Assembly: GCF_000970205.1 (NCBI RefSeq)
Contig: NZ_CP009512.1
Location: forward strand, 3,720,001-3,784,000
Source: Methanosarcina mazei S-6
Lineage (GTDB): Archaea > Halobacteriota > Methanosarcinia > Methanosarcinales > Methanosarcinaceae
Length of the DNA stretch: 64,000 nucleotides
Direction: 5' to 3'
The notes below the pieces were generated by a model that was given only the letters and a program-made list of their open reading frames with translations, ran no database searches and was not told where the DNA came from. Positions 17,465 through 30,491 of the stretch are shown here, one piece after another. How positions within the stretch are numbered: position 1 is the first letter of the stretch; every line of letters begins with the position of its first letter. The position numbers and the translations under genes are program-made.

Positions 17465-18510
17465 TAAAGTCAGGAATACACAGGTAAGCAGCACCATAAA
17501 CAGGTAAGCAGCACCAATGAAAATCTAAAATCCAAGCCTTCTGCATTCTCATTTTCATTAAAAATAGGAAGAAAATGAGTATTTAAATAACCGGAGATAT
17601 TTTTATTCTTCAACCGGTTTTATACTTAACTTGAATCATTCTATATACATTTTTTTACATGATTTATGTATTTCAGAATTAATTTTTATCAGCATTTGAG
17701 AGAAAAGCCAAAAGCCTTTGTAGCTATTTCCGAGTCATTTCTATTTTTTGCCTCAAAAAAACACTACGTTACGCCGTTTCAAAGAAGAGAAAAAATAATT
17801 CATACATGGCAACTGTATAAATTATCGCGCTTGTGCAGGTAAAACTGGAGCATTAAGTTTATACAGAAAACTATTAAATAATTAAGATTCATACTAATTA
17901 TCAGCAAATTTAGACAATGTTGAGATCATATAGGAAGCTTTGGGAAGAGGTAGAAGTATTAGAGATTATACTTCCCTATTTGATCTCAGGCAAATATATC
18001 AGATTATAAATAGGGAAGAGGAGTGGGGAATTTGAGGATTTTAACTAAATCCGGGTACTGGAAACCTGCCTGATCACATTTAGCGGAGTTGCAGCATCCT
18101 GTAACTGTGGATTAACGAGTATATTACCCTGTTTACCGGGAAAAATATAGAGATAATGCTCTGCAGTTTTTTACCTGAGTGAGAAGGGTGCTTTTATGGA
18201 GACAGATCAGTACATAGTGAGTACTGTAGAGATGGTCTGGATCTTTAAGAGGGATAAATCCACGTTTACCAATGCGATTTCTGCCTCCAAATAAATGTGC
18301 TGTTTTATCTGAAGATATCTCGCATAGCTGTGATTATGATCTTTTGCCGGTTGTGAACCACAATGAAGAGATCCGTCAGATCAGTGCATAAAAATTGAGA
18401 TTTCCAGAATAAAACAGATGCCTGCTATCATAGGTTTGCGTTAAAATTTCCCTTTAAAATCTGTTACCAATTGAGCAGTCAGCTCAGTAAGATGCTTGGT
18501 GGGGTTCGAG
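17465..18510. other. Long intergenic region
   Basis: There is a short direct repeat (ACAGGTAAGCAGCACCA, twice near 17480-17520) and otherwise AT-rich sequence. A 39-codon frame near 18270-18390 has no recognisable features. No gene is supported. The promoter of the exopolysaccharide operon must be near the right end. Confidence 0.4.
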
Positions 18511-19938
18511 ATGGTTAAAGAACGTATCGGAGATTTTGTAAAATTTCAAAAAACAGAAGTAATAAATCGACCGGAGACTATATTTGGAAGAAAAGAGAAG
18601 AGCGATAAAAAATTCTCTGATTCTTCCGGCAATAGCGTAAATAAATTGATACCTGTTGCCTCATTAATTCTGGCTGTATTAATCACTCTTTCAATCGGAT
18701 TATTTCTTTACGAGGGAATTAACCACTTAAATAATGGTACTCCCGGCAGTGTTACTATCCTGGAAGAACCAGAGCTTCTTGACGCACTGAGGAATGCGCA
18801 GGATAGAGGAGTTCTTCTTGCAATGCATGGATGGGCACATGAAGATTATTCAACTCTAACGCCATTGCAGATAAAAGAAAATATAGAAAAAGGAAAATAC
18901 GTCTTTGAAAAAGCCGGGATTGTTCCTGTGGCATTCATCCTTCCAGAAGAACCTATTCATGGAACAATAGATGCATCACTAAAACGGGAAATAGAGAGCA
19001 ACGGGATCCCAACAGAGTTACCTGTGCTCGAAACCGATGGAACCTACAGGAACGAATATACATGGAACTGGCGTGAAATGGAAAGTTTAGAAGATTCCCG
19101 ATACCAGGAGGCTTCTGAGCAAATAAGGGAGGATAATCCGACAACGATTCTGCTCCATGCACAGGACTGGAATCCTTATACGAAGCAGTTTATCACTGAT
19201 TACTTATCATCGACCAATGAGAGAAATGTCACCATCAGGGTAGATGATGTCGAGGTGAATACCAGACCAGAAATGGTCTCTGACATGGCCCAGTTGACCC
19301 AATACGAATCAGTTGGACAGGTTGCATTTGCAGTAATTCCTGCGGGAGCAGGAAAAGGAGACAACCCTGCTATCGGGAACATAAATATAAACAGGATTAT
19401 GGGGGTTTACTTCTGGTTCTTTATCATAACCTCATTGTTGCCACTTTCATTTTTTGCAACATGGAAATTGTTATCGAAGTGGCACAAAAATAGGAAACAA
19501 AACAGGTATTTACTTGAGGATGGCCGAGATCCAAAAGATCCAAACACGAAAGGTCCAATATTAGTCTCCGTTATTTCCCCGGCTTATAATGAAGAGAAAT
19601 CAATAGGGAAATGCCTTCAATCTATTCTTAATCAAGACTATAAGGGAAAAATGGAAGTGATCGCTGTTAATGACGGCTCCAGCGATCGAACTGCAGAGAT
19701 TATTTCAAAGTATCCTGTAAAACTTCTCGACCTTAAAGTTAACGGAGGAAAAGCAAACGCTCTTAATAAAGCTATTGAGATTGCAAAAGGAGACATTCTG
19801 ATCTTTACGGATTCAGATTCTTATATGGCACCGAATGCTGTGAGTTCTCTGGTGAAATGTCTCAATGAGAATGAAGAAGCCCAGATGGTGGCAGGAAACG
19901 TGTTTATTCATGATAACCGGGGAAAAAAGGAATCATGA
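18511..19938 (+). CDS. Exopolysaccharide synthase, N-terminal part: deacetylase-like domain plus GT2 N-half
   Basis: 475 residues from the ATG at 18511 (GGTGGGG site). One membrane helix lies near 45-70. An extracytoplasmic domain resembling DUF2334/polysaccharide deacetylases follows (AMHGWAHEDYSTLTP). A second helix is near 295-320, then the start of a cytosolic family 2 glycosyltransferase (VISPAYNEEKSIGKCLQSIL, NDGSSDRT, FTDSDSY). The frame stops in the middle of the GT2 domain. The missing part, with the ED and QxxRW motifs, is encoded in the -1 frame at 19935. The two halves together make a normal PgaC/hyaluronan-synthase-like enzyme. See the slippery site at 19923. Confidence 0.85.
   Translation: MVKERIGDFVKFQKTEVINRPETIFGRKEKSDKKFSDSSGNSVNKLIPVASLILAVLITLSIGLFLYEGINHLNNGTPGSVTILEEPELLDALRNAQDRGVLLAMHGWAHEDYSTLTPLQIKENIEKGKYVFEKAGIVPVAFILPEEPIHGTIDASLKREIESNGIPTELPVLETDGTYRNEYTWNWREMESLEDSRYQEASEQIREDNPTTILLHAQDWNPYTKQFITDYLSSTNERNVTIRVDDVEVNTRPEMVSDMAQLTQYESVGQVAFAVIPAGAGKGDNPAIGNININRIMGVYFWFFIITSLLPLSFFATWKLLSKWHKNRKQNRYLLEDGRDPKDPNTKGPILVSVISPAYNEEKSIGKCLQSILNQDYKGKMEVIAVNDGSSDRTAEIISKYPVKLLDLKVNGGKANALNKAIEIAKGDILIFTDSDSYMAPNAVSSLVKCLNENEEAQMVAGNVFIHDNRGKKES
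19923..19929 (+). promoter_or_regulatory. Slippery heptamer A AAA AAG, candidate -1 frameshift site
   Basis: In the zero frame of the upstream gene the codons read GGA AAA AAG GAA TCA TGA. The heptamer has the canonical X XXY YYZ phase. A -1 slip continues directly into the downstream frame, giving a protein of about 695 residues with an uninterrupted GT2 domain. No strong downstream hairpin is obvious. An indel in the purine run is the plain alternative. Confidence 0.5.
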
Positions 19939-20600
19939 AGTATTTCCAGATGATTGAATATCGTACCGAACAGGAGATTATCCGCCACCTTCAGGGCTTG
20001 TCAGGCAGCATCCTTGTATGCCCTGGCCCTCTCACTGCTGTCAGGCGCAAAGTGTGTGATGTAATTAGCTTCAGTAACGAGACCATAGTTGAAGATGCTG
20101 ACTTTACGATTAAGGCTCTTAAAAACTCAATTAAAATTATTCAAGAACCAGAAGCAATAGTCTACACTGACGCACCTGAGACTGTTAAAGGGTGGTATAA
20201 ACAGAGGAAGAGATGGTGGTATGGAAATCTCCAGTTATGGAGACTCCACAAAAAATGGGCAATGAAGAATCCGTGGATGATATTCAATTATTCAGGATAT
20301 ATAACAGGGATTTGTTCAATCATCCTGATCATGTCAATACCATACTTAATCCTTCAGTATGACAACATTCCAATGATACTGATGAGTGGAATCCTGTGCC
20401 TTGCATTCTCTATAATGCTGTACATTATATACATTGGCCCATTATTTGCCACAGACAAAAGATTATTACTAATGTTGATACCTTATGTATTGATCTATGC
20501 AACAATAAAAGTAGTAGTAATCAGCAGCCTTTTCCTGTGCTACCTGACAGGTAAAGGAGTAAAAGTTAAATTCGGTGCAAAGAGCTTTGTGGTGAGGTAA
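19935..20600 (+). CDS. Exopolysaccharide synthase, C-terminal part of the GT2
   Basis: 221 codons in the -1 frame, overlapping the upstream stop as ATGA. It carries the missing GT2 motifs: VEDADFTIK (catalytic Asp region) and QRKRWW (QxxRW). These are followed by three or four membrane helices (ITGICSIILIMSIPYLIL, MILMSGILCLAFSIML and LLLMLIPYVLIYATIK). On its own it is not a functional glycosyltransferase. It needs to be fused by frameshifting, or to assemble with the upstream product, or the gene is broken. Confidence 0.8.
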   Translation: MKYFQMIEYRTEQEIIRHLQGLSGSILVCPGPLTAVRRKVCDVISFSNETIVEDADFTIKALKNSIKIIQEPEAIVYTDAPETVKGWYKQRKRWWYGNLQLWRLHKKWAMKNPWMIFNYSGYITGICSIILIMSIPYLILQYDNIPMILMSGILCLAFSIMLYIIYIGPLFATDKRLLLMLIPYVLIYATIKVVVISSLFLCYLTGKGVKVKFGAKSFVVR

Positions 20601-21388
20601 TGAAAAAAGACTACAAAAAATATTTTTTAGCAGGGCCAATACCCTTAATTTTAGTTATAATTCTATTTTATTTACACCCGGTTAACGAAGGTCCTCCGCG
20701 ATCAGAATATTCGGAAGGAATATGGAATAATTGTAATTTTACAAAACCTGCTGAAGAGTGGTCTGCGGCTGCTAAGAGGTTTGGGGGAGAAAATGCAGTG
20801 ATTGATCTGGTCGTTGCCCAGGCTCATGCAAATGAGCTTACATACCTGCCATATCCTTTTGAAAAAAGTGAAAATGTTTACAGCTACAGTCAGACTGATC
20901 AGGTAGAGCCATACCTTAAAAAATTCGATGAAGATGGCTTGAAGGTGATCCTTTCAATTCAGCCTAATAATGCTGATGTAGCAGATTTGATTGACATTAT
21001 ACTTACAAGGTATGGTCATCATGAAAGCATAATAGGTGTAAATATTGATATGGAATGGAAATTGACCGGGAACCCGTGTCATGTCAGCAATGAAGAGCGT
21101 AACCTCTGGTTAAACAGGGTCCAAAAATACAATCCGGAATTTAAACTGTTTCTGACTTATTTTAAAGATTACACCTATTTCCCAGATGATGCAGAAGATG
21201 TTGTCATCCTATATGATGGAGAGAAAGCTACTCAAACAACACTCATGAGAGAATATGGAAATCTTGCGAGCCATTATACATCAGCAGGAATATATACAGG
21301 TTATTCCTCCAGCACCCCGCCAACAGCATCTCATGATAGTATCATGGCTGCAGCTCCGAATACGCAGTATATCTTGCATATAGTCTGA
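20600..21388 (+). CDS. Membrane-anchored exported protein, glycoside-hydrolase-like barrel
   Basis: 262 residues, with a start overlapping the previous stop by one base. A signal anchor (FLAGPIPLILVIILFYL) is followed by an exported domain with barrel-like strands (LKVILSIQPN, IIGVNIDMEWKLTG, FKLFLTYF, DVVILYDGEK). The acidic cluster in NIDMEW is placed like the catalytic acidic residues of GH18-like barrels. Its operon position next to a polysaccharide synthase suggests it modifies or releases the exported glycan. No specific family could be named. Confidence 0.7.
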   Translation: MKKDYKKYFLAGPIPLILVIILFYLHPVNEGPPRSEYSEGIWNNCNFTKPAEEWSAAAKRFGGENAVIDLVVAQAHANELTYLPYPFEKSENVYSYSQTDQVEPYLKKFDEDGLKVILSIQPNNADVADLIDIILTRYGHHESIIGVNIDMEWKLTGNPCHVSNEERNLWLNRVQKYNPEFKLFLTYFKDYTYFPDDAEDVVILYDGEKATQTTLMREYGNLASHYTSAGIYTGYSSSTPPTASHDSIMAAAPNTQYILHIV

Positions 21389-21631
21389 TAAATATTGGAT
21401 ATCAAAATATCTCTACTTTGAAACTTAAATACGGACCATAATGCCTTCAGAGAATGAATAAAGGACGGATCATCAGGAAACGAAGTGGAAGTAAAGCAAA
21501 TTTTTATATATAAAAAACGCTCAATAAAAATTGAGTTTGGTGAGTTAACCTGGATTCTGATTTCTGGTTTTGATTCAAAAAAACAGTCCGAATACAATAA
21601 AGAATGCTATTTGAATAAGGAGTGGAAATTA

Positions 21632-21811
21632 ATGGTAGCAAAAGTCAACAAAGAAGAATGCACCGGATGCGGGACCTGCGTAGATGAATGTCCTGTAGAA
21701 GCAATCATTATTGACGAAGATGAAGGCTGTGCGGTAGTGGATGAGGATGAATGTGTAGACTGCGGGGCCTGTGAAGATGTCTGTCCCATAGGAGCCATAA
21801 AGGTCGAATAA
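21632..21811 (+). CDS. 2[4Fe-4S] ferredoxin
   Basis: 59 residues from the ATG at 21632 behind AAGGAGTGG; the open frame extends further upstream without coding character. Two CxxCxxCxxxC(P) motifs ([12 protein letters not shown] and [11 protein letters not shown]-like) bind two [4Fe-4S] clusters. It is an acidic clostridial-type electron carrier. A close paralogue lies at 60645. Confidence 0.92.
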
Positions 21812-21902
21812 TACAGGATTTACAGTTAAAGATACACTCTGAAAAAGAAACCTCACCAATTGAATTAAGGAAAAAGAATAGGAAAGCTAAAAAGCATATT
21901 TT

Positions 21903-22379
21903 TCAGCTCTTCAGAGCATTTTCCCATTCAGACTCCCTCTTTTTTACATTTCGCCGGTTTATTCCACTTGAAGAAGGCAGAACCTTTGTCTCATAGCCCA
22001 TTGCACTGAGGACCGGCTCATATCTTCCTGATGCCTTGCCATTAAAAAATACCTTCTTCAGTTCCGGTGCCATCTCTTTTAATTCAGAAAACTGATTTAC
22101 CTCTTCTTCCCTTATGTTTGAGTCCTGGCTTCCTTTCCTTTTTCCGGCTTTAAAAACGTCCCAGAGCCCTATTCTGTGGCGTTTGAGAGTTGTAAGCCTT
22201 GTTTCATAATCCATATCCTGGAGATTCTCTCCTATTGCATTACCGACCAGCCTCCAGAAATCATTGCCCGGATGCCCGTAATACTGCCGCCTCCTCAATG
22301 ACTCGTCGCCGGGAAGTGACCCCAGAATAAGAATCTCAGTATTATTATCGAAAACTGGAGGAAACCCTCTTTTTATCAT
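21903..22379 (-). CDS. Hypoxanthine/deaminated-base DNA glycosylase (UDG superfamily, family 6-like)
   Basis: 158 residues with the UDG-superfamily motifs GSLPGDESL (residues ~20-28) and YYGHPGNDFWRL (~33-44) and the C-terminal LPSSSG. This arrangement is that of the HDG branch described from Methanosarcina, which removes hypoxanthine from DNA. Related MUG-type G/T mismatch glycosylases are the alternative. It is a single gene with ATG start, read toward its neighbour ferredoxin. Confidence 0.85.
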   Translation of the reverse strand: MIKRGFPPVFDNNTEILILGSLPGDESLRRRQYYGHPGNDFWRLVGNAIGENLQDMDYETRLTTLKRHRIGLWDVFKAGKRKGSQDSNIREEEVNQFSELKEMAPELKKVFFNGKASGRYEPVLSAMGYETKVLPSSSGINRRNVKKRESEWENALKS

Positions 22380-22497
22380 GGTAAAGAAAACTTGATTCGG
22401 AAATACTTTAATTTTTAGAACCTAAAAAAAGTGAATTAGTGTAGAATCCTTCCTTATTAAATTAGTGTAAAACCCATTTTGAATTCTTATTGAATAA

Positions 22498-22522
22498 GTA
22501 TTGGATTTTAAAAATCCAATAC
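22498..22522 (-). terminator. Hairpin downstream of the distal regulator gene
   Basis: A perfect 12-bp inverted repeat (GTATTGGATTTT and its complement, one central base) lies 4 bp beyond the stop of the regulator at 22527. Confidence 0.6.
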
Positions 22523-22526
22523 CGGA

Positions 22527-23318
22527 TCAAATCTTTATAACCTGCTCAGACATGTCCTTATAGTAGTCGAAAAGTTCCCTGCCCCATTCAAGAGCGCTTT
22601 TTTCAAAGCTTACCATCTCGTGGTTATAATATCTCCCGTCTTTTGAGATCATGGATAAAGAAATGAACCGGTCGGTAATAATGCTGGAAGCAAGATCAAT
22701 CCTGTCGTCACAAACAAAAAGGGAAGTGTTCTCCATATTCAGGAACTCTTCTACACCTTTCCTGTAGTCACGGACCAGCTTCCTGTATATTGGCCTTTCA
22801 AGGACAAGAGATACCTCAATCCCTTTTTGCGCGAGATCCAGATAAAGGCCTGGATATCCCGGACGGAAAAACGAAGATATTTCCATTACTATTCTGGACT
22901 TGTAAAGTGGGTCCATAATTTCCGGAGGGTAATCGAAGATATGCGTCCTTTCGGGTATAAGTTCTCTACAGGTGCCCAGTTCCCCGATTCTGTCCAGCAG
23001 GTGAGCAGGAAGAGTACGCAGGTTCTGCCTTGCCCAGTAATCGTGGTTCTCATCAAATACCTGGAAAGTAGAGAGAAGCGGCTCCATTTTGGGGACTATA
23101 AGTTTCCCTTTTACAGAGAGTTCGTAACTATCTTCGTTCTGCACCAGCAGCCCATCTTTAAGAAGTATACGGATCTGAGCCATAATAGGGCTGGAACTGA
23201 CTTCAAGCTCGGTCTTTATCTCTTCAATCGTTTTTGGCCCGTTCTTCAGGAGCAGAAGCAAATTTTTCCTTTTGTCCGAAAAAAAAATGGTATCTATTAA
23301 CTGCAGTTCCATACTCAT
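22527..23318 (-). CDS. FilR1-type winged-helix regulator (methanol-gene regulator, Msr-like), distal copy
   Basis: 263 residues. An ArsR-like winged helix occupies about 1-80 (IDTIFFSDKRKNLLLLLKNG, then TIEEIKTELEVSSSPIMAQI). A FilR1/DUF1724 effector domain fills the rest. In M. acetivorans, pairs of such Msr proteins beside mtaCB operons control methanol methyltransferase expression, and the same arrangement is seen here: two tandem regulators divergent from mtaCB. The regulator name MsrB is avoided to prevent confusion with methionine sulfoxide reductase at 44295. Start is the ATG at 23318 or 23312 behind GGAGGGAGG. Confidence 0.85.
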   Translation of the reverse strand: MSMELQLIDTIFFSDKRKNLLLLLKNGPKTIEEIKTELEVSSSPIMAQIRILLKDGLLVQNEDSYELSVKGKLIVPKMEPLLSTFQVFDENHDYWARQNLRTLPAHLLDRIGELGTCRELIPERTHIFDYPPEIMDPLYKSRIVMEISSFFRPGYPGLYLDLAQKGIEVSLVLERPIYRKLVRDYRKGVEEFLNMENTSLFVCDDRIDLASSIITDRFISLSMISKDGRYYNHEMVSFEKSALEWGRELFDYYKDMSEQVIKI

Positions 23319-23439
23319 TCTATTTAGCCTCCCTCCGGAAAGGAGTTTGATATCAATGTAATAAGATGATTAATTCGGGATTTAAATCTCCAAACATGTA
23401 TTAAAGCTGTTGACACGCCAGTATTTCAGGCATCCCAGT

Positions 23440-23600
23440 ATTTCGAGCCCGTCATTATTCGAGCTCGTTATTGAGACCATTATTATCCGAGCTCGTTATT
23501 GAGACCATTATTATCCGAGCTCATTATTGAGATCATAATTATTCGAGATCATCATTATCCAGACTCATTATTGAGATCGTCATTATTGAGATCGTCATTA
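23440..23600. repeat. 28-bp tandem repeats between the two regulators
   Basis: CGAGCTC-type cores recur at 23460, 23488, 23516 and 23544 with exact 28-bp spacing, separated by ATTATTGAGA-type segments. Decayed half-units run to 23600. The repeats fill most of the 283-bp gap between the tandem regulators. They lack spacers and are not CRISPR. Confidence 0.8.
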
Positions 23601-23601
23601 T

Positions 23602-24456
23602 TTAGTGAAAGCTTACAAGCTGGGATTCGACAAATGTCTCGTTTTCTGACGTGCATATAAAACTGTCAATGATTTTCTCGCTTACAACCTTTAAAGCCCT
23701 TGATTTGTAGAAATCAAAGAGCTCTTTTGCCCAGGAAATTGCCTGAGGCTCGGTACAGTGCATATACTCATGATAGAACCTGCCCTGGTCGTCAAAGAGA
23801 GAGATCATCATCCCACGGTCGGAGACGATGAGTTCGGCAATCTTCACTCCATCCTTACAGACAGAAAGTTCGGTATTGTCCATTGTGGTGAATTTACGTA
23901 TTTTCCGTTCATAGTTATGGAGAAACTTTTCGAGCACAGATTCCGTAAAAATAAGTGAAACATCGGACTCAAGTCTTGCAAGCTTCAAAAAGAGAGGAAG
24001 GAATTCAGGCCTGTAAAAAGAGGAAAATACCATAAGATAGCGGGAAGAAGAAAAGAAGTCCAGAAGTTCTGTATTTGGTTCGAATATCTGGCTGGGATCC
24101 GCTTTGATGGGGTTGCAGTCCTTGATGTCTCCTATCCTGTCAAGAAGGTACTGAGGGATTCCATCCAGGTCGTGTTCCATCCAGTAGTTGTCTTTTTCAA
24201 CGAGGCAAAGTACATCTACAAGGGACCTGACTTTTTTGAATACCTGCTCTCCCATATCTGTTAATTCATAGCTGCCATTTTTCTGGATAACCAGGTCGCT
24301 GTCTGTAAGCCTTTTGATCTGAGGCAAGATAGCTGTGGGAGAAACATCGAGGATAACTTTAATTTCTTCCATTGTTCTGGGTTCTTCTCCCAGGAGCAGG
24401 AGTAGATCCCTTCTTTTCTGGGAACGAAATACTACATCTATTAACTCAGGTTGAAT
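23602..24456 (-). CDS. FilR1-type winged-helix regulator (Msr-like), proximal to mtaCB, probable ATT start
   Basis: The first ATG (24372) would cut off the first helix of the winged-helix domain. Reading upstream in frame gives IQPELIDVVFRSQKRRDLLLLL, which aligns residue for residue with MELQLIDTIFFSDKRKNLLL of the paralogue at 22527, so the start should be the ATT at 24456. A GAGGTGG site ends 5 bases upstream and a TGA lies one codon further, with no ATG, GTG or TTG available. Total 284 residues: winged helix ~1-80, FilR1 domain after it. It is divergent from mtaC and probably regulates it. Confidence 0.8.
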   Translation of the reverse strand: MQPELIDVVFRSQKRRDLLLLLGEEPRTMEEIKVILDVSPTAILPQIKRLTDSDLVIQKNGSYELTDMGEQVFKKVRSLVDVLCLVEKDNYWMEHDLDGIPQYLLDRIGDIKDCNPIKADPSQIFEPNTELLDFFSSSRYLMVFSSFYRPEFLPLFLKLARLESDVSLIFTESVLEKFLHNYERKIRKFTTMDNTELSVCKDGVKIAELIVSDRGMMISLFDDQGRFYHEYMHCTEPQAISWAKELFDFYKSRALKVVSEKIIDSFICTSENETFVESQLVSFH

Positions 24457-24461
24457 TCAAA

Positions 24462-24468
24462 CCACCTC
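24462..24468 (-). promoter_or_regulatory. Ribosome binding site deciding the ATT start
   Basis: GAGGTGG on the minus strand sits 5 bases (7 from the GAGGT core) before the ATT at 24456. Confidence 0.6.
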
Positions 24469-25347
24469 TATCTTGTTTTTTTGTCAATGTAGGATATATG
24501 ATCTTGCGGCACAGAAAATTTGCCGCAGCGAAGAAAAATTTGAGACCCTTTCGCTTTCTCTGCGGGCTGAACAGAAGGAAAAGTTTGTGCCATAGTTGGA
24601 GGTAACCGATAAGCAGAGATATATAAAAGCGTTTGGATTAATAATTTACAAACCTGAGGGAAGTTAAACAGAGGAATTAAAAAAGTTAGACGGAAAAGGA
24701 GAAATTAAAGAAAAAACAGCACCATAAGCCAGAATTTAAAAGGAAAATAACACTAGAAGTTTATAAATTAATTTTATAATTTACAGAGATATAGTAAATA
24801 AGAACATTGAAATTTTTGAATCGCTTTATCTGAATAATGACATTGTTTAAAAAAAATTAAATTGTTTTAATTCACATACATAGTCAAGTCATTGAAGCTG
24901 TTACCCGGAATTCACTTCAAAAATTTAGAGCTCTTTTATCAAAAAATAAAAGTCCAGAAAATATGGAGGCAAAAAGTCTCAAGGTAGCCTCAAAATTTTA
25001 GACCCTGTGTTTTTTCGTAAAAATCAGGAAAAAATTTCCGTCGGTTATGGTATATGTGATGATTTCCCCTAATTATGATGTAAACACATGCCAGTGTACT
25101 GACATGCAATACATTAAAAAAGGAAAAGTTCCGGAAAACAGGAGAAAGAAGATTTTTTCACCGGTACATACCGTAGAGATCTGGAATTTAGCCCTTCAAA
25201 GAAGAAAAACTCCAGATAAGAGTATTACCACGGAAAAATAGCTTTACAGAGGCAAAACCGGAACCTCCAGCGCCTTATGAACCCGGAAACTGCAGATTCG
25301 GAGAGGCAAGGACCTTTTTGTTAAAATCTAAATGGAGGTTTAGAAAT
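24469..25347 (+). other. Long regulatory region / leader of mtaCB
   Basis: About 880 bp separate the proximal regulator from mtaC. The region is AT-rich to about 25040 and then more balanced up to the mtaC ribosome site (GGAGGT at 25334). A 64-codon frame at 25047-25241 has no recognisable protein features and may only reflect leader RNA. mtaCB operons of M. acetivorans are known for long 5' leaders; the length here fits that. Confidence 0.55.
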
Positions 25348-26124
25348 ATGTTGGACTTTACAGAGGCAAGTCTGAAAAAGGTATTAACCAGATACAATGT
25401 AGCTCTGGAAAAGGCAATGACGCCAGAAGACGCCGCCGAAGAGCTCTATCCTAAGGACGAACTTATTTACCCGATTGCAAAAGCTATCTTCGAAGGAGAA
25501 GAAGACGACGTAATCGAGGGTCTCGAAGCAGCAATTAAAGCAGGCAAGGACCCAATTGCTCTTATCGATGACGCACTAATGGTCGGCATGGGCGTTGTCA
25601 CAAGACTCTACGATGAAGGTATCATTTTCCTCCCCAATGTCATGATGTCCGCTGACGCCATGCTTGATGGTATTGAATTCTGTAAGGAAAACTCCGAAAC
25701 TGCTCCTGTAACAAAGGGAACTGTTGTCTGCCACGTCGCAGAAGGTGACGTTCACGACATCGGGAAGAACATCGTTACAGCCCTCCTCAGAGCAAACGGC
25801 TACAATGTAGTTGACCTCGGAAGGGACGTTCCTGTCGATGAAGTTCTCAATGCAGTTGCTGAAAACAACCCAATCCTGGTCACAGGTACTGCACTCATGA
25901 CCACCACCATGTATGCATTCAAGGAAGTTAACGACAAACTTCTCGAGAAAGGATACAAGATTCCATTCGCATGCGGTGGCGGAGCAGTTAACCAGGACTT
26001 CGTATCCCAGTATGCACTCGGTGTATATGGTGAAGAGGCCGCTGACGCCCCCAAGATTGCTGACGCAATCGTTGCAGGTACCACAGATATTGCAGCATTA
26101 AGAGACAAATTCCACAAGCACTGA
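25348..26124 (+). CDS. mtaC: Methanol-specific corrinoid protein MtaC
   Basis: 258 residues from the ATG at 25348 (GGAGGT site); an upstream in-frame extension to 25318 is not needed. A helical cap domain (about 30-120) is followed by the B12-binding Rossmann domain with GDVHDIGKN, whose His is residue 136, the cobalt ligand of MtaC. MtaC accepts the methyl group of methanol from MtaB and passes it to MtaA for transfer to coenzyme M. mtaB follows 10 bp downstream. Codon use is markedly GC-rich and biased, as expected for one of the most highly expressed genes of a methylotrophic methanogen. Confidence 0.96.
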   Translation: MLDFTEASLKKVLTRYNVALEKAMTPEDAAEELYPKDELIYPIAKAIFEGEEDDVIEGLEAAIKAGKDPIALIDDALMVGMGVVTRLYDEGIIFLPNVMMSADAMLDGIEFCKENSETAPVTKGTVVCHVAEGDVHDIGKNIVTALLRANGYNVVDLGRDVPVDEVLNAVAENNPILVTGTALMTTTMYAFKEVNDKLLEKGYKIPFACGGGAVNQDFVSQYALGVYGEEAADAPKIADAIVAGTTDIAALRDKFHKH

Positions 26125-26134
26125 GGTGAGTGAA

Positions 26135-27520
26135 ATGGCAGCAACAAGATTCACTAAGATGGCATACGCAAGCGCAGACGAAATGACCTTCGGCGTATCC
26201 AAGTACCCTGTAAAAGCAGGACTAGGCCTTGAAATCGGTGCAGGTTACACAATTCCTGAAGTTAACTACGCCCCAAGACCAGAAGCCGGCGCATCCAAGG
26301 AAAAACTCATAAAAGAATACGAGAGGATCACCACTGACATCATGGCCAGAATGGTCCAGGTCGGTTTCCCGGCAGTTATCCTCGAAACAGAACACGTTCA
26401 GCAGATGTCCAACAACCCCTCCTGGGGAGCAGAAGTTGCACACGCCCAGAAGACCATCATGGAAGAATACCACGATGAATACGGCATAAAGTGCGCACTC
26501 CGCCACACAATTGGTGACATCCGTGAGAACAGGGACTTCCTCCAGCTCAGAGGCGACAAGTACTCCGTCTTCCTCGAAGCATTCGAAGAATGCGCAAAGG
26601 CTGGCGCAGACCTCCTGTCTGTTGAATCAATGGGTGGTAAGGAAGTATTCGACTACGCAGTTCTCAGGAACGACATCGCTGGTATGCTCTACGCAATCGG
26701 CTGTCTCGGGTCCATTGACATGGAACTCATCTGGTCTGACATCTCCGCAATCGCAAAGAAGACCGGAACTGTTTCTGCTGGTGACACAGACTGTGCCCAG
26801 GCAAACACCGCAATGTTCATCGGCGGTGGACTGCTCGACAAGAACCTCGCCCACACCCTCGCAATCCTCGCAAGGGCAATTTCCGCACCCAGGTCCCTCG
26901 TTGCATACGAGTGTGGCGCTGTTGGTCCAGGAAAGGACTGCGGATACGAGAACGTTGTCATTAAAGCCATTACCGGTATGCCAATGACCCAGGAAGGTAA
27001 GACCTCCACCTGCGCTCACTCTGACGTAATGGGTAACCTCATTATGCAGTGCTGTGACTGCTGGTCCAACGAGTCTGTTGAATACCACGGTGAATTCGGC
27101 GGTACAACCGTTCAGTGCTGGGGCGAGTCCCTTGCATATGACTGCGCACTCATGAACACCGCTCTTGAAACCAAGAACGACAAAGTACTCAGGGACCTCC
27201 TCATGCTCTCCGACAGGTACAGAGACCCACAGGCCTACGTGCTTGCATACGACAACGCATACAGGATCGGTCAGGCAATCGTCAAAGACGGAGACAACAT
27301 CTACCTCAGAGCAAAGAACGCTGCAATCGCATGCTGCGACATCGTCAGCGAAGGTGCTGCAGGCAAGCTCGAGCTCTCCAGGTTCGAGACCAAAGCACTC
27401 GCAGACGCAAAGGCATCCCTGGACTCCCTCACAGACGACATGGACAAGTTCATGGACGACTGCCTCACAAAATACAAGAGCGAAGTTAAAGTCTTCCTCC
27501 CTGAGAACTACGGCTTCTAA
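26135..27520 (+). CDS. mtaB: Methanol:corrinoid methyltransferase MtaB
   Basis: 461 residues from the ATG at 26135 (GAGGTGA site). The GTG at 26126 is rejected because numbering from the ATG puts the zinc ligands at Glu164, Cys220 and Cys269, as in characterised MtaB. MtaB activates methanol on zinc and methylates the Co(I) corrinoid of MtaC. Intact and strongly codon-biased, it forms a two-gene operon with mtaC; mtaA is not in the window. Confidence 0.97.
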   Translation: MAATRFTKMAYASADEMTFGVSKYPVKAGLGLEIGAGYTIPEVNYAPRPEAGASKEKLIKEYERITTDIMARMVQVGFPAVILETEHVQQMSNNPSWGAEVAHAQKTIMEEYHDEYGIKCALRHTIGDIRENRDFLQLRGDKYSVFLEAFEECAKAGADLLSVESMGGKEVFDYAVLRNDIAGMLYAIGCLGSIDMELIWSDISAIAKKTGTVSAGDTDCAQANTAMFIGGGLLDKNLAHTLAILARAISAPRSLVAYECGAVGPGKDCGYENVVIKAITGMPMTQEGKTSTCAHSDVMGNLIMQCCDCWSNESVEYHGEFGGTTVQCWGESLAYDCALMNTALETKNDKVLRDLLMLSDRYRDPQAYVLAYDNAYRIGQAIVKDGDNIYLRAKNAAIACCDIVSEGAAGKLELSRFETKALADAKASLDSLTDDMDKFMDDCLTKYKSEVKVFLPENYGF

Positions 27521-27529
27521 GCCTCCAGT

Positions 27530-27552
27530 TCTCTTTTTCTTTTTTCTTTAAA
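27530..27552 (+). terminator. T-rich terminator after mtaB
   Basis: Pyrimidine/T runs (CTCTTTTTCTTTTTT) start about 10 bp past the stop, typical of archaeal transcription termination. Confidence 0.6.
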
Positions 27553-27885
27553 TTTACTTACTGCACTTTTATCCTCATTTTTTGAAATGAAAAATATAGT
27601 GTAGCCTCTATAGCTCCTGCATCATCCCCACATGCTTTTCTATTATCTATAAATCGACTCCCGTTTTCCGCCATACATGAAGTCAGGAAAAGGCTGCTTC
27701 GCAAAAAACAGCGACAAAAACTTAACAGGCTGGATGTTGAGTTTTCAGACTTCCTGTAAAACGGTGAGACCACATTTACAGCATATTAACAAACAGACAT
27801 GAAGACGTTCCGGTCTGAAAACATGGATTATTCGGGGAGAAACAGACTGATAAATTTAATAAAGTTGGAATGCATATTCAATAAT
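27553..27885. other. Intergenic with possible decayed coding tail
   Basis: A plus-strand frame around 27600-27760 (SINRLPFSAIHEVRKRLLRK) looks protein-like but is short and has no start. It may be a fragment of a transposase or other gene. Nothing firmer can be said. Confidence 0.3.
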
Positions 27886-28026
27886 ATGATATTGCCAGAA
27901 AATACAATAATCAAATTGATACTGGTCACGATAGTTATTTTCGGCATAGCAACCTACTTCCTGTTAGCCAAATTATACGGATTAGCAAAATTATACTTAT
28001 GGCCTCAAGACAGGAGAAAACAGTAA
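27886..28026 (+). CDS. Small membrane protein, 46 residues
   Basis: From the ATG at 27886: MILPENTIIKLILVTIVIFG followed by IATYFLLAKLYGLAKLYLWP and a basic tail. It predicts one long or two short membrane helices. An AT-rich TATA-like stretch lies about 25-35 bp upstream, suggesting a leaderless transcript. The frame continues upstream to 27799 with poorer coding character. Function unknown. Confidence 0.45.
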   Translation: MILPENTIIKLILVTIVIFGIATYFLLAKLYGLAKLYLWPQDRRKQ

Positions 28027-28197
28027 ACGACTCGTGACCGGATTTCCTGTAAATCAAAGAAGAAACATTCCCCTTGGATATGATTACAACAACATCAGGC
28101 TTCGGATTTCAGGTTGATCCATGCTAACTTTTTTACCTCCACATGCAGGCTCTTCACTCCATCCAATATGAAGAAAAAACCTGAAAACGCCATCAAG

Positions 28198-28428
28198 TTA
28201 CAAAATTTCTATAATTTTATAGACAACAGTTGCAATAAAAAGTACCAGCAGTGGTCCGATCACCATGTTTAAAGAACTTATTATAGTTTTTCTTTGCACT
28301 TCCGATACTGAGAGGATATCCTTGAGCAGGAGAAATAAAACCAATCCGAATACAATTGCGTATTCAAATACAGGAATTCCGGTTGTGTTTACCATTGAGA
28401 CAGCACTGTATATCACACTTACTAGCAT
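28198..28428 (-). CDS. Small two-helix membrane protein, 76 residues
   Basis: ATG at 28428 with AAGGCG five bases upstream. Two hydrophobic segments (YAIVFGLVLFLLL and VIGPLLVLFIATVVYKII) flank a charged loop (KDILSVSEVQRKT). It lies at the edge of the surface polysaccharide cluster. I do not recognise a family. Confidence 0.6.
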   Translation of the reverse strand: MLVSVIYSAVSMVNTTGIPVFEYAIVFGLVLFLLLKDILSVSEVQRKTIISSLNMVIGPLLVLFIATVVYKIIEIL

Positions 28429-28931
28429 TTAAACGCCTTCGAATGAGTTTATTCTATGAAACCTTTGAAAATCTTCAATCCCATTATGTCGATGAATTAA
28501 AGCATTGAGAGTTAATTTCAACGTCCGTAGAATTCGAATATTGGAATTGAATTTAATAACTCTGTGTGAAACTATCCCCCACGTTCTGATTTATTAAGCA
28601 GAATAAGTAAATAAATTCAATAGAAAAAACTATTCTGAGGTTTAATAGTTACATAAGATATTGACTATTTGAAAGATTAAAAAATATTTTTTGAAATATT
28701 CAGTAATTGTAATATGAAGATGTATTATTCTATAACTATAAATTAGAAATGTGTGATTCCATATATAATATAGAAGTACTTTTTCCCTTTTTCTGCTATT
28801 AAATACGGGAAATTTACTCTAATAGATTAAAACCTGATCGTGACCTGAAACCGGTAGAACTCCTGGAATAGCTGAGTGCACATAAAAAAATTTAGTGAAC
28901 GGAAGACATCGAGTCTTCCCTCAGAAGTGGT
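28429..28931. other. AT-rich intergenic region
   Basis: No protein-like frame or clear repeat seen between the small membrane gene and the DUF362 gene. Confidence 0.4.
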
Positions 28932-30491
28932 TCATATTTGATTATCGAGGTCTATTGGGTGATAGTCTATGTAAGTATAATTTTCTTGATCACTCCAGGA
29001 CTCTGAAACTCCCAATCCCAGCTCAGCGGCATAAGATTGGACAAGACCTGTCGCCTGTGAACCTACTTCTCTTCTAACATAATCTACCATGACCGAGTCT
29101 GTTGCTACGGGGTCAACTCCAAAGAAAAGTGTTTCTGGAGGCTTGTTTCCAAATGACTTCCATAACGTAGGTGGACCATAATTAATATCGGGATTACCCA
29201 TTATACCGTCACCTACAACTAATCTTGTTTTTTCTCTAAAAACTGGATTATTATTGATGTCTGCCAAAAGTTTTGCAAACGGCTGGGCATTATGTGCAGG
29301 GTCATCACCCAGAGCATCGGCAGTATAATATACACTTCCAAAATTATTTTTCAAACTGAAAGTTACTCTCCCAACACTCTTCATTCCATGTCCTTTTAAC
29401 TGAGGCATATTAATTATATAAGTTGCATCAGCAAACACTTGAGCAGGCCTTATTTTTTCATCATATGCTGTGCTTGTAGATGCATATACGGAGTCATCTG
29501 GAACGTAACCGGTCACTGAAACGTTTGGTCTTCCTTCAATGTATGCCTCACAATTTTGATTTATATAGTACTGCACTCCCTTGTCTTCAATTCTTTCCCT
29601 AAATTTATCATGTATAGGCCTTGATGGGTCAGTTATCCATATTTTTTCCGAGGGGACACCAGCAGACTTCAATCCACTTATTACGGAATTTACAACTGCA
29701 GCATAATTAAGCATATTTGTATTGGAATCATCATTATAATAGAACCCATTAGAGGAAAAATGCCAGTTATTATTAAAATTCACTTTAATTACAACTGACT
29801 GCCCGGCAGTATATGGAATTATCTTTCTCCATCCTTCTTGAGGAGATGTTGTTCCAGTCAATTCCATAATTCCAGCATCTACCATTTTATCAATTTCAGT
29901 TTGATTCATGTAGTTATTAGGATTTCCCTCTCCTTCCCAGGTAGAAGCATTTGAATTATGAACTGTTACAACTCTATGAGGAGAAGGTAAATCATATGCA
30001 GCCGGAATTGTTGCAAATTCAATTTGACCAGATTCAGATTCAATGGAAGAATTTATTCCAGGTCCAGATTCTACAGGAGAGGCTACTGGCCCATTAAAGT
30101 AATTCGTAGTTAAAAATACTCCAAATCCAAATATAGAAGCCAGGATTAATGTAAACAGAGATAATCTACTAAATTTAAAATCCTGAGTGAAAAAACCTCT
30201 AATTTTTGTTAGAAACAAATAAAGTGGAGAAGCTACTGCAACTATTACAAATGTACTCAGGTTTGTAGCAGCAACTCTCTGGCAGGGATAAACAATTCTT
30301 GAGGGTTTGGTTCCTGACTTATATATTAACCAAAACAAGCTTGCAAGAGCTACGAAGAAAAAACTGGATTCAATTTTGTGCCACAAATGTTTTATCCTGT
30401 ATTTCAAAGGAATTTTTCCAGAATGGCTATAATTATGGGAATGGACTTTATCATGGGAATTATTACAATGATCACTTATAAAATCTTTCAT
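28932..30491 (-). CDS. DUF362-domain membrane-anchored protein
   Basis: 519 residues, ATG with a CGGAGA site. A His/Asn-rich N-terminus precedes three hydrophobic segments (about 35-55, 75-95 and 110-130). The large C-terminal domain has DUF362 features: VVIKVNFNNNWHFSS, WITDPSRPIHDKF, YIINMPQLKGHGMKSVGRVT, SLKNNFGSVY and FGVDPVATDSVMVDYVRRE. DUF362 proteins are often iron-sulfur or redox linked, but no Cys cluster motif is present here. It is the last gene of the minus-strand surface cluster, after the methyltransferase. Confidence 0.85.
   Translation of the reverse strand: MKDFISDHCNNSHDKVHSHNYSHSGKIPLKYRIKHLWHKIESSFFFVALASLFWLIYKSGTKPSRIVYPCQRVAATNLSTFVIVAVASPLYLFLTKIRGFFTQDFKFSRLSLFTLILASIFGFGVFLTTNYFNGPVASPVESGPGINSSIESESGQIEFATIPAAYDLPSPHRVVTVHNSNASTWEGEGNPNNYMNQTEIDKMVDAGIMELTGTTSPQEGWRKIIPYTAGQSVVIKVNFNNNWHFSSNGFYYNDDSNTNMLNYAAVVNSVISGLKSAGVPSEKIWITDPSRPIHDKFRERIEDKGVQYYINQNCEAYIEGRPNVSVTGYVPDDSVYASTSTAYDEKIRPAQVFADATYIINMPQLKGHGMKSVGRVTFSLKNNFGSVYYTADALGDDPAHNAQPFAKLLADINNNPVFREKTRLVVGDGIMGNPDINYGPPTLWKSFGNKPPETLFFGVDPVATDSVMVDYVRREVGSQATGLVQSYAAELGLGVSESWSDQENYTYIDYHPIDLDNQI

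Follow-up and report, generated by a model that had tools for sequence, protein, structure and literature searches.

Prokaryotic genes that start with codons other than AUG tend to have stronger Shine–Dalgarno (SD) sequences, and replacement of AUG by AUU is very rare, with a single switch among 61,358 reconstructed AUG starts (PMC5622118). In Staphylococcus aureus, cvfC1 begins with AUU and both ccpN and infC with AUA, in each case downstream of an extended SD, and the non-canonical starts that were tested gave ~10% of the expression obtained from AUG (PMC13009471). In Methanosarcina acetivorans, the regulators MsrA and MsrB jointly activate mtaCB1, and loss of either one abolishes its expression (PMC3960522; also PMC11218639). 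Here we describe a regulator gene of Methanosarcina mazei S-6 whose ancestral ATG is replaced by ATT, in the one genome of the species that was covered. The gene lies within a window of 64,000 nucleotides (the whole stretch of DNA analyzed; contig NZ_CP009512.1, positions 3,720,001 to 3,784,000). Over residues 185-454, the pyrrolysyl-tRNA synthetase encoded by this genome shows no difference from the crystallized M. mazei enzyme (PDB 2q7e). The reading that we prefer, with a probability of about 0.52, is a switch of the start codon from AUG to AUU, compensated by the SD, in an MsrA-type activator of the adjacent mtaCB genes, with AUU now being used as the start.

The regulator gene comprises 284 codons on the minus strand (23602..24456), in a frame conserved across the genus that opens ATT CAA CCT GAG TTA ATA GAT directly after a TGA stop. 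The original prediction held that this ATT (24456-24454, minus strand) follows closely on a stop, stands behind a well-placed GAGGTGG and leaves no ATG, GTG or TTG with which the full winged-helix domain could start, and all of this was borne out: the TGA (24459-24457, minus strand), common to most orthologues, is the immediately preceding codon; GAGGTGG (24462..24468, minus strand) is separated from ATT by a 5-nt spacer; and the next in-frame ATG, GTG or TTG is the ATG of codon 29 (24370..24372, minus strand), which leaves ATT as the sole in-frame candidate for a full winged helix. Codon 29 is Met in nearly all orthologues, and the SD-like GGAG ~14 nt upstream of it is too distant to serve. 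Using Pfam, we placed the N-terminal winged helix (HVO_A0261_N, PF25213, E = 2e-10) at residues 6-81 and an HTH_5 match, below the cut-off for HTH_5, at residues 13-56, so that initiation at codon 29 would remove part of the helix-turn-helix DNA-binding domain. Automatic annotation would begin the gene at this codon and thereby lose half of the DNA-binding domain. These observations support the conclusion that the gene must start at AUU, or else be truncated or silent.

The winged helix is followed by a FilR1_middle domain (PF08350, E = 3e-33, 115 bits versus a cut-off of 27), and the regulator thus has the domain combination of the Msr/FilR1 type; no solved structure of it was found. It is 84% identical to its orthologue in genome G001 (best match per genome, identical gene order), where we take the orthologous regulator pair to be MsrA and MsrB. 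Its own partner is a paralogue of MsrB type on the minus strand (22527..23318; PF08350), whose ATG start is conserved in orthologues, while mtaC (methanol corrinoid protein; 25348..26124) and mtaB (methanol:corrinoid methyltransferase; 26126..27520), both assigned by synteny, lie divergently from the regulator on the plus strand. The order mtaB-mtaC, regulator, paralogue was kept in 8/8 loci checked, including the genome taken as M. acetivorans, and the regulator combines one-to-one orthology with synteny to both mtaCB and the second regulator, as an orthologue of MsrA should. By orthology, then, the gene with AUU is MsrA-like, and by analogy with MsrA and MsrB of M. acetivorans it would act as an activator. 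Several other features were seen in the surroundings. Imperfect tandem repeats lie between the two regulator genes (23442-23602; units of ~15, 28 and 44 bp, for example ATTATCCGAGCTCGTTATTGAGACCATT), and a glycosyltransferase gene (18496-20600) has its frame split near 19930, where an indel adjoins an A6 run; it is either a pseudogene or a sequence error, and its relatives have one intact frame of ~700 aa. A search of positions 20000-29000 with Rfam gave no matches.

We compared the start codon across 26 orthologues, 23 from Methanosarcina species (one close orthologue per genome) and three from a sister genus. ATG was found at the exact position of ATT in 25 of these (22/23 Methanosarcina and 3/3 from the sister genus), preceded by a flanking block that is near-invariant among the orthologues (GATAGAAGTGGTTTGA-ATG). 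The lineage of this genome has therefore acquired AUU secondarily, which excludes a weak start conserved among relatives. ATG in orthologues is the outcome that the original prediction had named as its own refutation, pointing to a point mutation or a sequencing error, and we consider AUU most likely to be a start-codon mutation of one species, partly rescued by a strong SD, rather than a conserved regulatory device. An earlier argument for the start had been a gapless alignment of ATT to the first Met of the paralogue at 22527; its register is correct, but the residue matched is codon 3 of the paralogue (ATG AGT ATG) and not the first Met. The true start of the paralogue is its first ATG, as its orthologues show by having Thr, Ala or Val at codon 3 in many species. 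The register is thus better supported by the 25/26 orthologues with ATG at the exact codon than by the paralogue.

The only exception, genome G002, has ACG at the start position. We gave it little weight as an independent second case because the assembly (20 contigs) is an estimated 87% complete and its neighboring regulator (gene B) has a T8 homopolymer lacking one T, resulting in a frameshift near the start of the gene. The SD of G002 is also altered (GGAGTGAT), ranking second with the full anti-SD and third or fourth with shorter ones. A habit of non-NTG starts in this regulator family was rejected, since the three paralogue groups that were compared (B, C and D, with the B gene of G002 frameshifted) contained no such start.

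SD strength was evaluated against the 3' end of the 16S rRNA from the same genome (GGATCACCTCC). The predicted duplex energy (duplexfold) is −13.9 kcal/mol here versus −7.3 kcal/mol in most orthologues, and the GAAGTGG of most relatives is converted to GAGGTGG by a single A-to-G change that is unique to this genome. The pairing ranked first among 24 orthologues with each of four anti-SD lengths, remained first once the cost of unfolding the local start region was deducted and exceeded that of 36/36 ATG open reading frames (ORFs; at least 180 codons) tested in the window. The locus lacks any NTG able to start the conserved domain and at the same time has a stronger SD than its AUG orthologues. 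In neutral simulations of a 20-nt region, starting from the sister sequence and with divergence set to that of the upstream sites (25 of 100 differing from genome G007), the observed SD strength was attained in 1.0–1.4% of runs. This rarity supports compensation, short of proof, and the SD change could also predate AUU and be coincidental.

With the start position so changed, the regulator may be silent, or truncated from codon 29 (24372) without part of its winged helix, and decaying in this strain or species. Such a loss is plausible from the sequence, since AUU starts are weak, and the conserved Met at codon 29 is compatible with it, but we consider it unlikely given the strong purifying selection on the frame, codons 2-28 included. 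Relative to the nearest relative, dN/dS is 0.053 across codons 29-250 of the intact frame, and codons 2-28 differ by 5 synonymous and 0 nonsynonymous changes. When changes were polarized with outgroups, those assigned to the M. mazei branch numbered 3 synonymous and 0 nonsynonymous in codons 2-28, against 40 and 22 in the remainder; the N-terminus 5' of codon 29 was thus conserved at the protein level through most of this branch. Outside the N-terminus, the 22 amino-acid changes on this branch, compared with 6 on the sister branch (G007) by parsimony, hint at some relaxation, which would fit decay, and a very recent mutation is invisible to a test of this kind: if AUU is very young, constraint on the frame is uninformative about current function. 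Decay is harder to reconcile with an SD that grew stronger rather than weaker, with the intact paralogue and mtaCB genes in the window, and with the need of M. acetivorans for both MsrA and MsrB in mtaCB1 expression (PMC3960522). An error of sequencing or assembly, or a variant confined to this strain, with ATG in other M. mazei strains, is slightly less probable again. It would agree with the near-universal ATG of the orthologues, and the broken glycosyltransferase near 19930, intact in relatives, is a second lesion in the same window; however, the genome is a single contig of 4.14 Mb with an estimated completeness of 99.97%, a G-to-T substitution is atypical of homopolymer errors and an independent change that strengthens the SD lies within the same 16 nt. 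The intact, constrained frame and the stronger SD argue for a tolerated point mutation over a plain error. Start loss, strain variation and sequence error are together almost as likely as an AUU start supported by its SD.

Two further explanations concern translation initiation, the first of them involving the mRNA leader. An alignment of the regulator-mtaC intergenic region across eight species, together with the orthologue comparison, revealed a conserved TATA box (TTTATATA; 24627-24620, minus strand) as the probable promoter of the regulator, ~165-171 nt upstream of ATT, and its position implies a leader of ~140 nt and SD-led initiation. A proximal TATA-like sequence, CCTATATTTACA, which in this genome has degenerated to CCTACATTGACA, would yield a leaderless mRNA if it were the promoter; we rejected it because the TTTATATA block is far better conserved. 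The same intergenic region contains a highly conserved block (CATATACCATAACCGACGGAAATTTTTTCCTGATTTTTAC; ~25000-25110) that probably serves mtaCB as promoter and site of activator binding, and a leader hairpin (TGCGGC...GCCGCA; ~24480-24535, minus strand) is present here and in G007 and not evident in the other aligned species. Near the predicted transcript start, with the conserved TATA ~35 nt before its ATG, begins a leader ORF of 41 codons (ATGGCACAAACT...TAG; 24468..24593, minus strand) whose TAG falls at −14..−12, inside the SD. An ORF of this leaderless type, so placed, could deliver terminating ribosomes to AUU and make the start dependent on reinitiation. We regard this coupling as highly improbable: the first codons (MAQTLxPI) are conserved, but among orthologues that share the promoter the ORF is anywhere between 2 and 51 codons long, and on these grounds a conserved upstream peptide was rejected as well. 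Least probable of all is the mechanism put forward in the original prediction, in which a weak AUU ties synthesis of the regulator to initiation fidelity, by way of aIF1 or a related state of the ribosome. AUU is weak in the systems studied, the AUA start of the S. aureus HTH regulator gene ccpN responds to growth medium, whereas the sole AUU start tested in that species showed no effect of medium (PMC13009471), and a passage in PMC6237735 cites discrimination by aIF1 against non-canonical starts in Sulfolobus. The proposal nevertheless fails at this locus on several counts: none of the other species examined has AUU; feedback of the IF3 type requires a factor acting on its own gene, whereas the product here is a regulator of DNA-binding type; the aIF1 gene is not linked to the regulator and begins with a normal ATG; and the strengthening of the SD suggests that lost output has been compensated. 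Neither mark of an infC-like system, namely a conserved weak start and a product that controls start-codon discrimination, was found. To our knowledge, bacterial IF3, on which the autoregulation of infC is based, is absent from archaea.

The compensated start-codon switch would be an evolutionary event and not a regulatory one. On the lineage of this genome, the ancestral AUG of the regulator would have become AUU, at which the initiator tRNA would still start translation with reduced intrinsic efficiency, and the loss would be wholly or partly offset by the change from GAAGTGG to GAGGTGG, among the strongest SD pairings seen. We infer that AUU is used, as we do the order of the AUU and SD changes and the level of protein. 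A more far-reaching form of this reading, possible though doubtful, is that a natural AUU with a strengthened SD is really used in an archaeal methanol regulator and that its lowered or altered output adjusts the induction of mtaCB in M. mazei. Its use would give the archaea, in which IF3 is absent and aIF2/aIF1 select the start, a natural case of initiation at AUU; a limited literature search returned no reported case of an archaeal AUU start, the main-text passages covered of M. mazei ribosome-profiling and proteomics papers make no mention of the gene, and no further copy of the start site was found in viral contigs. The sister AUG with a weak SD and the AUU with a strong SD constitute a natural pair, from which one may gauge how far an SD can replace a start codon.

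Among described systems, the combination of a degraded start codon and a strengthened SD on the same lineage is the pattern reported by Belinky, Rogozin and Koonin in 2017 (PMC5622118), whose statistics concern GUG and UUG, with cases of AUU being too few. Escherichia coli infC (IF3) and pcnB also have AUU in the start position; infC, however, is autoregulated via discrimination by IF3, whereas the product here is not an initiation factor, its codon is not conserved and archaea are without IF3. MsrA and MsrB of M. acetivorans form the orthologous pair, with the same domains and the same position divergent from mtaCB, and differ in the ATG start found there (in the genome taken as M. acetivorans). 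S. aureus cvfC1 (AUU) and ccpN (AUA) share with this locus an AUN-type start behind an unusually extended SD, and ccpN is likewise an HTH regulator gene, concerned in its case with carbon metabolism (PMC13009471). Those examples are bacterial and come from ribosome profiling and reporters, and cvfC1 is conserved in its genus, whereas ours comes from sequence evidence in one archaeal species; if AUU is used, the regulator may well work as the S. aureus genes do.
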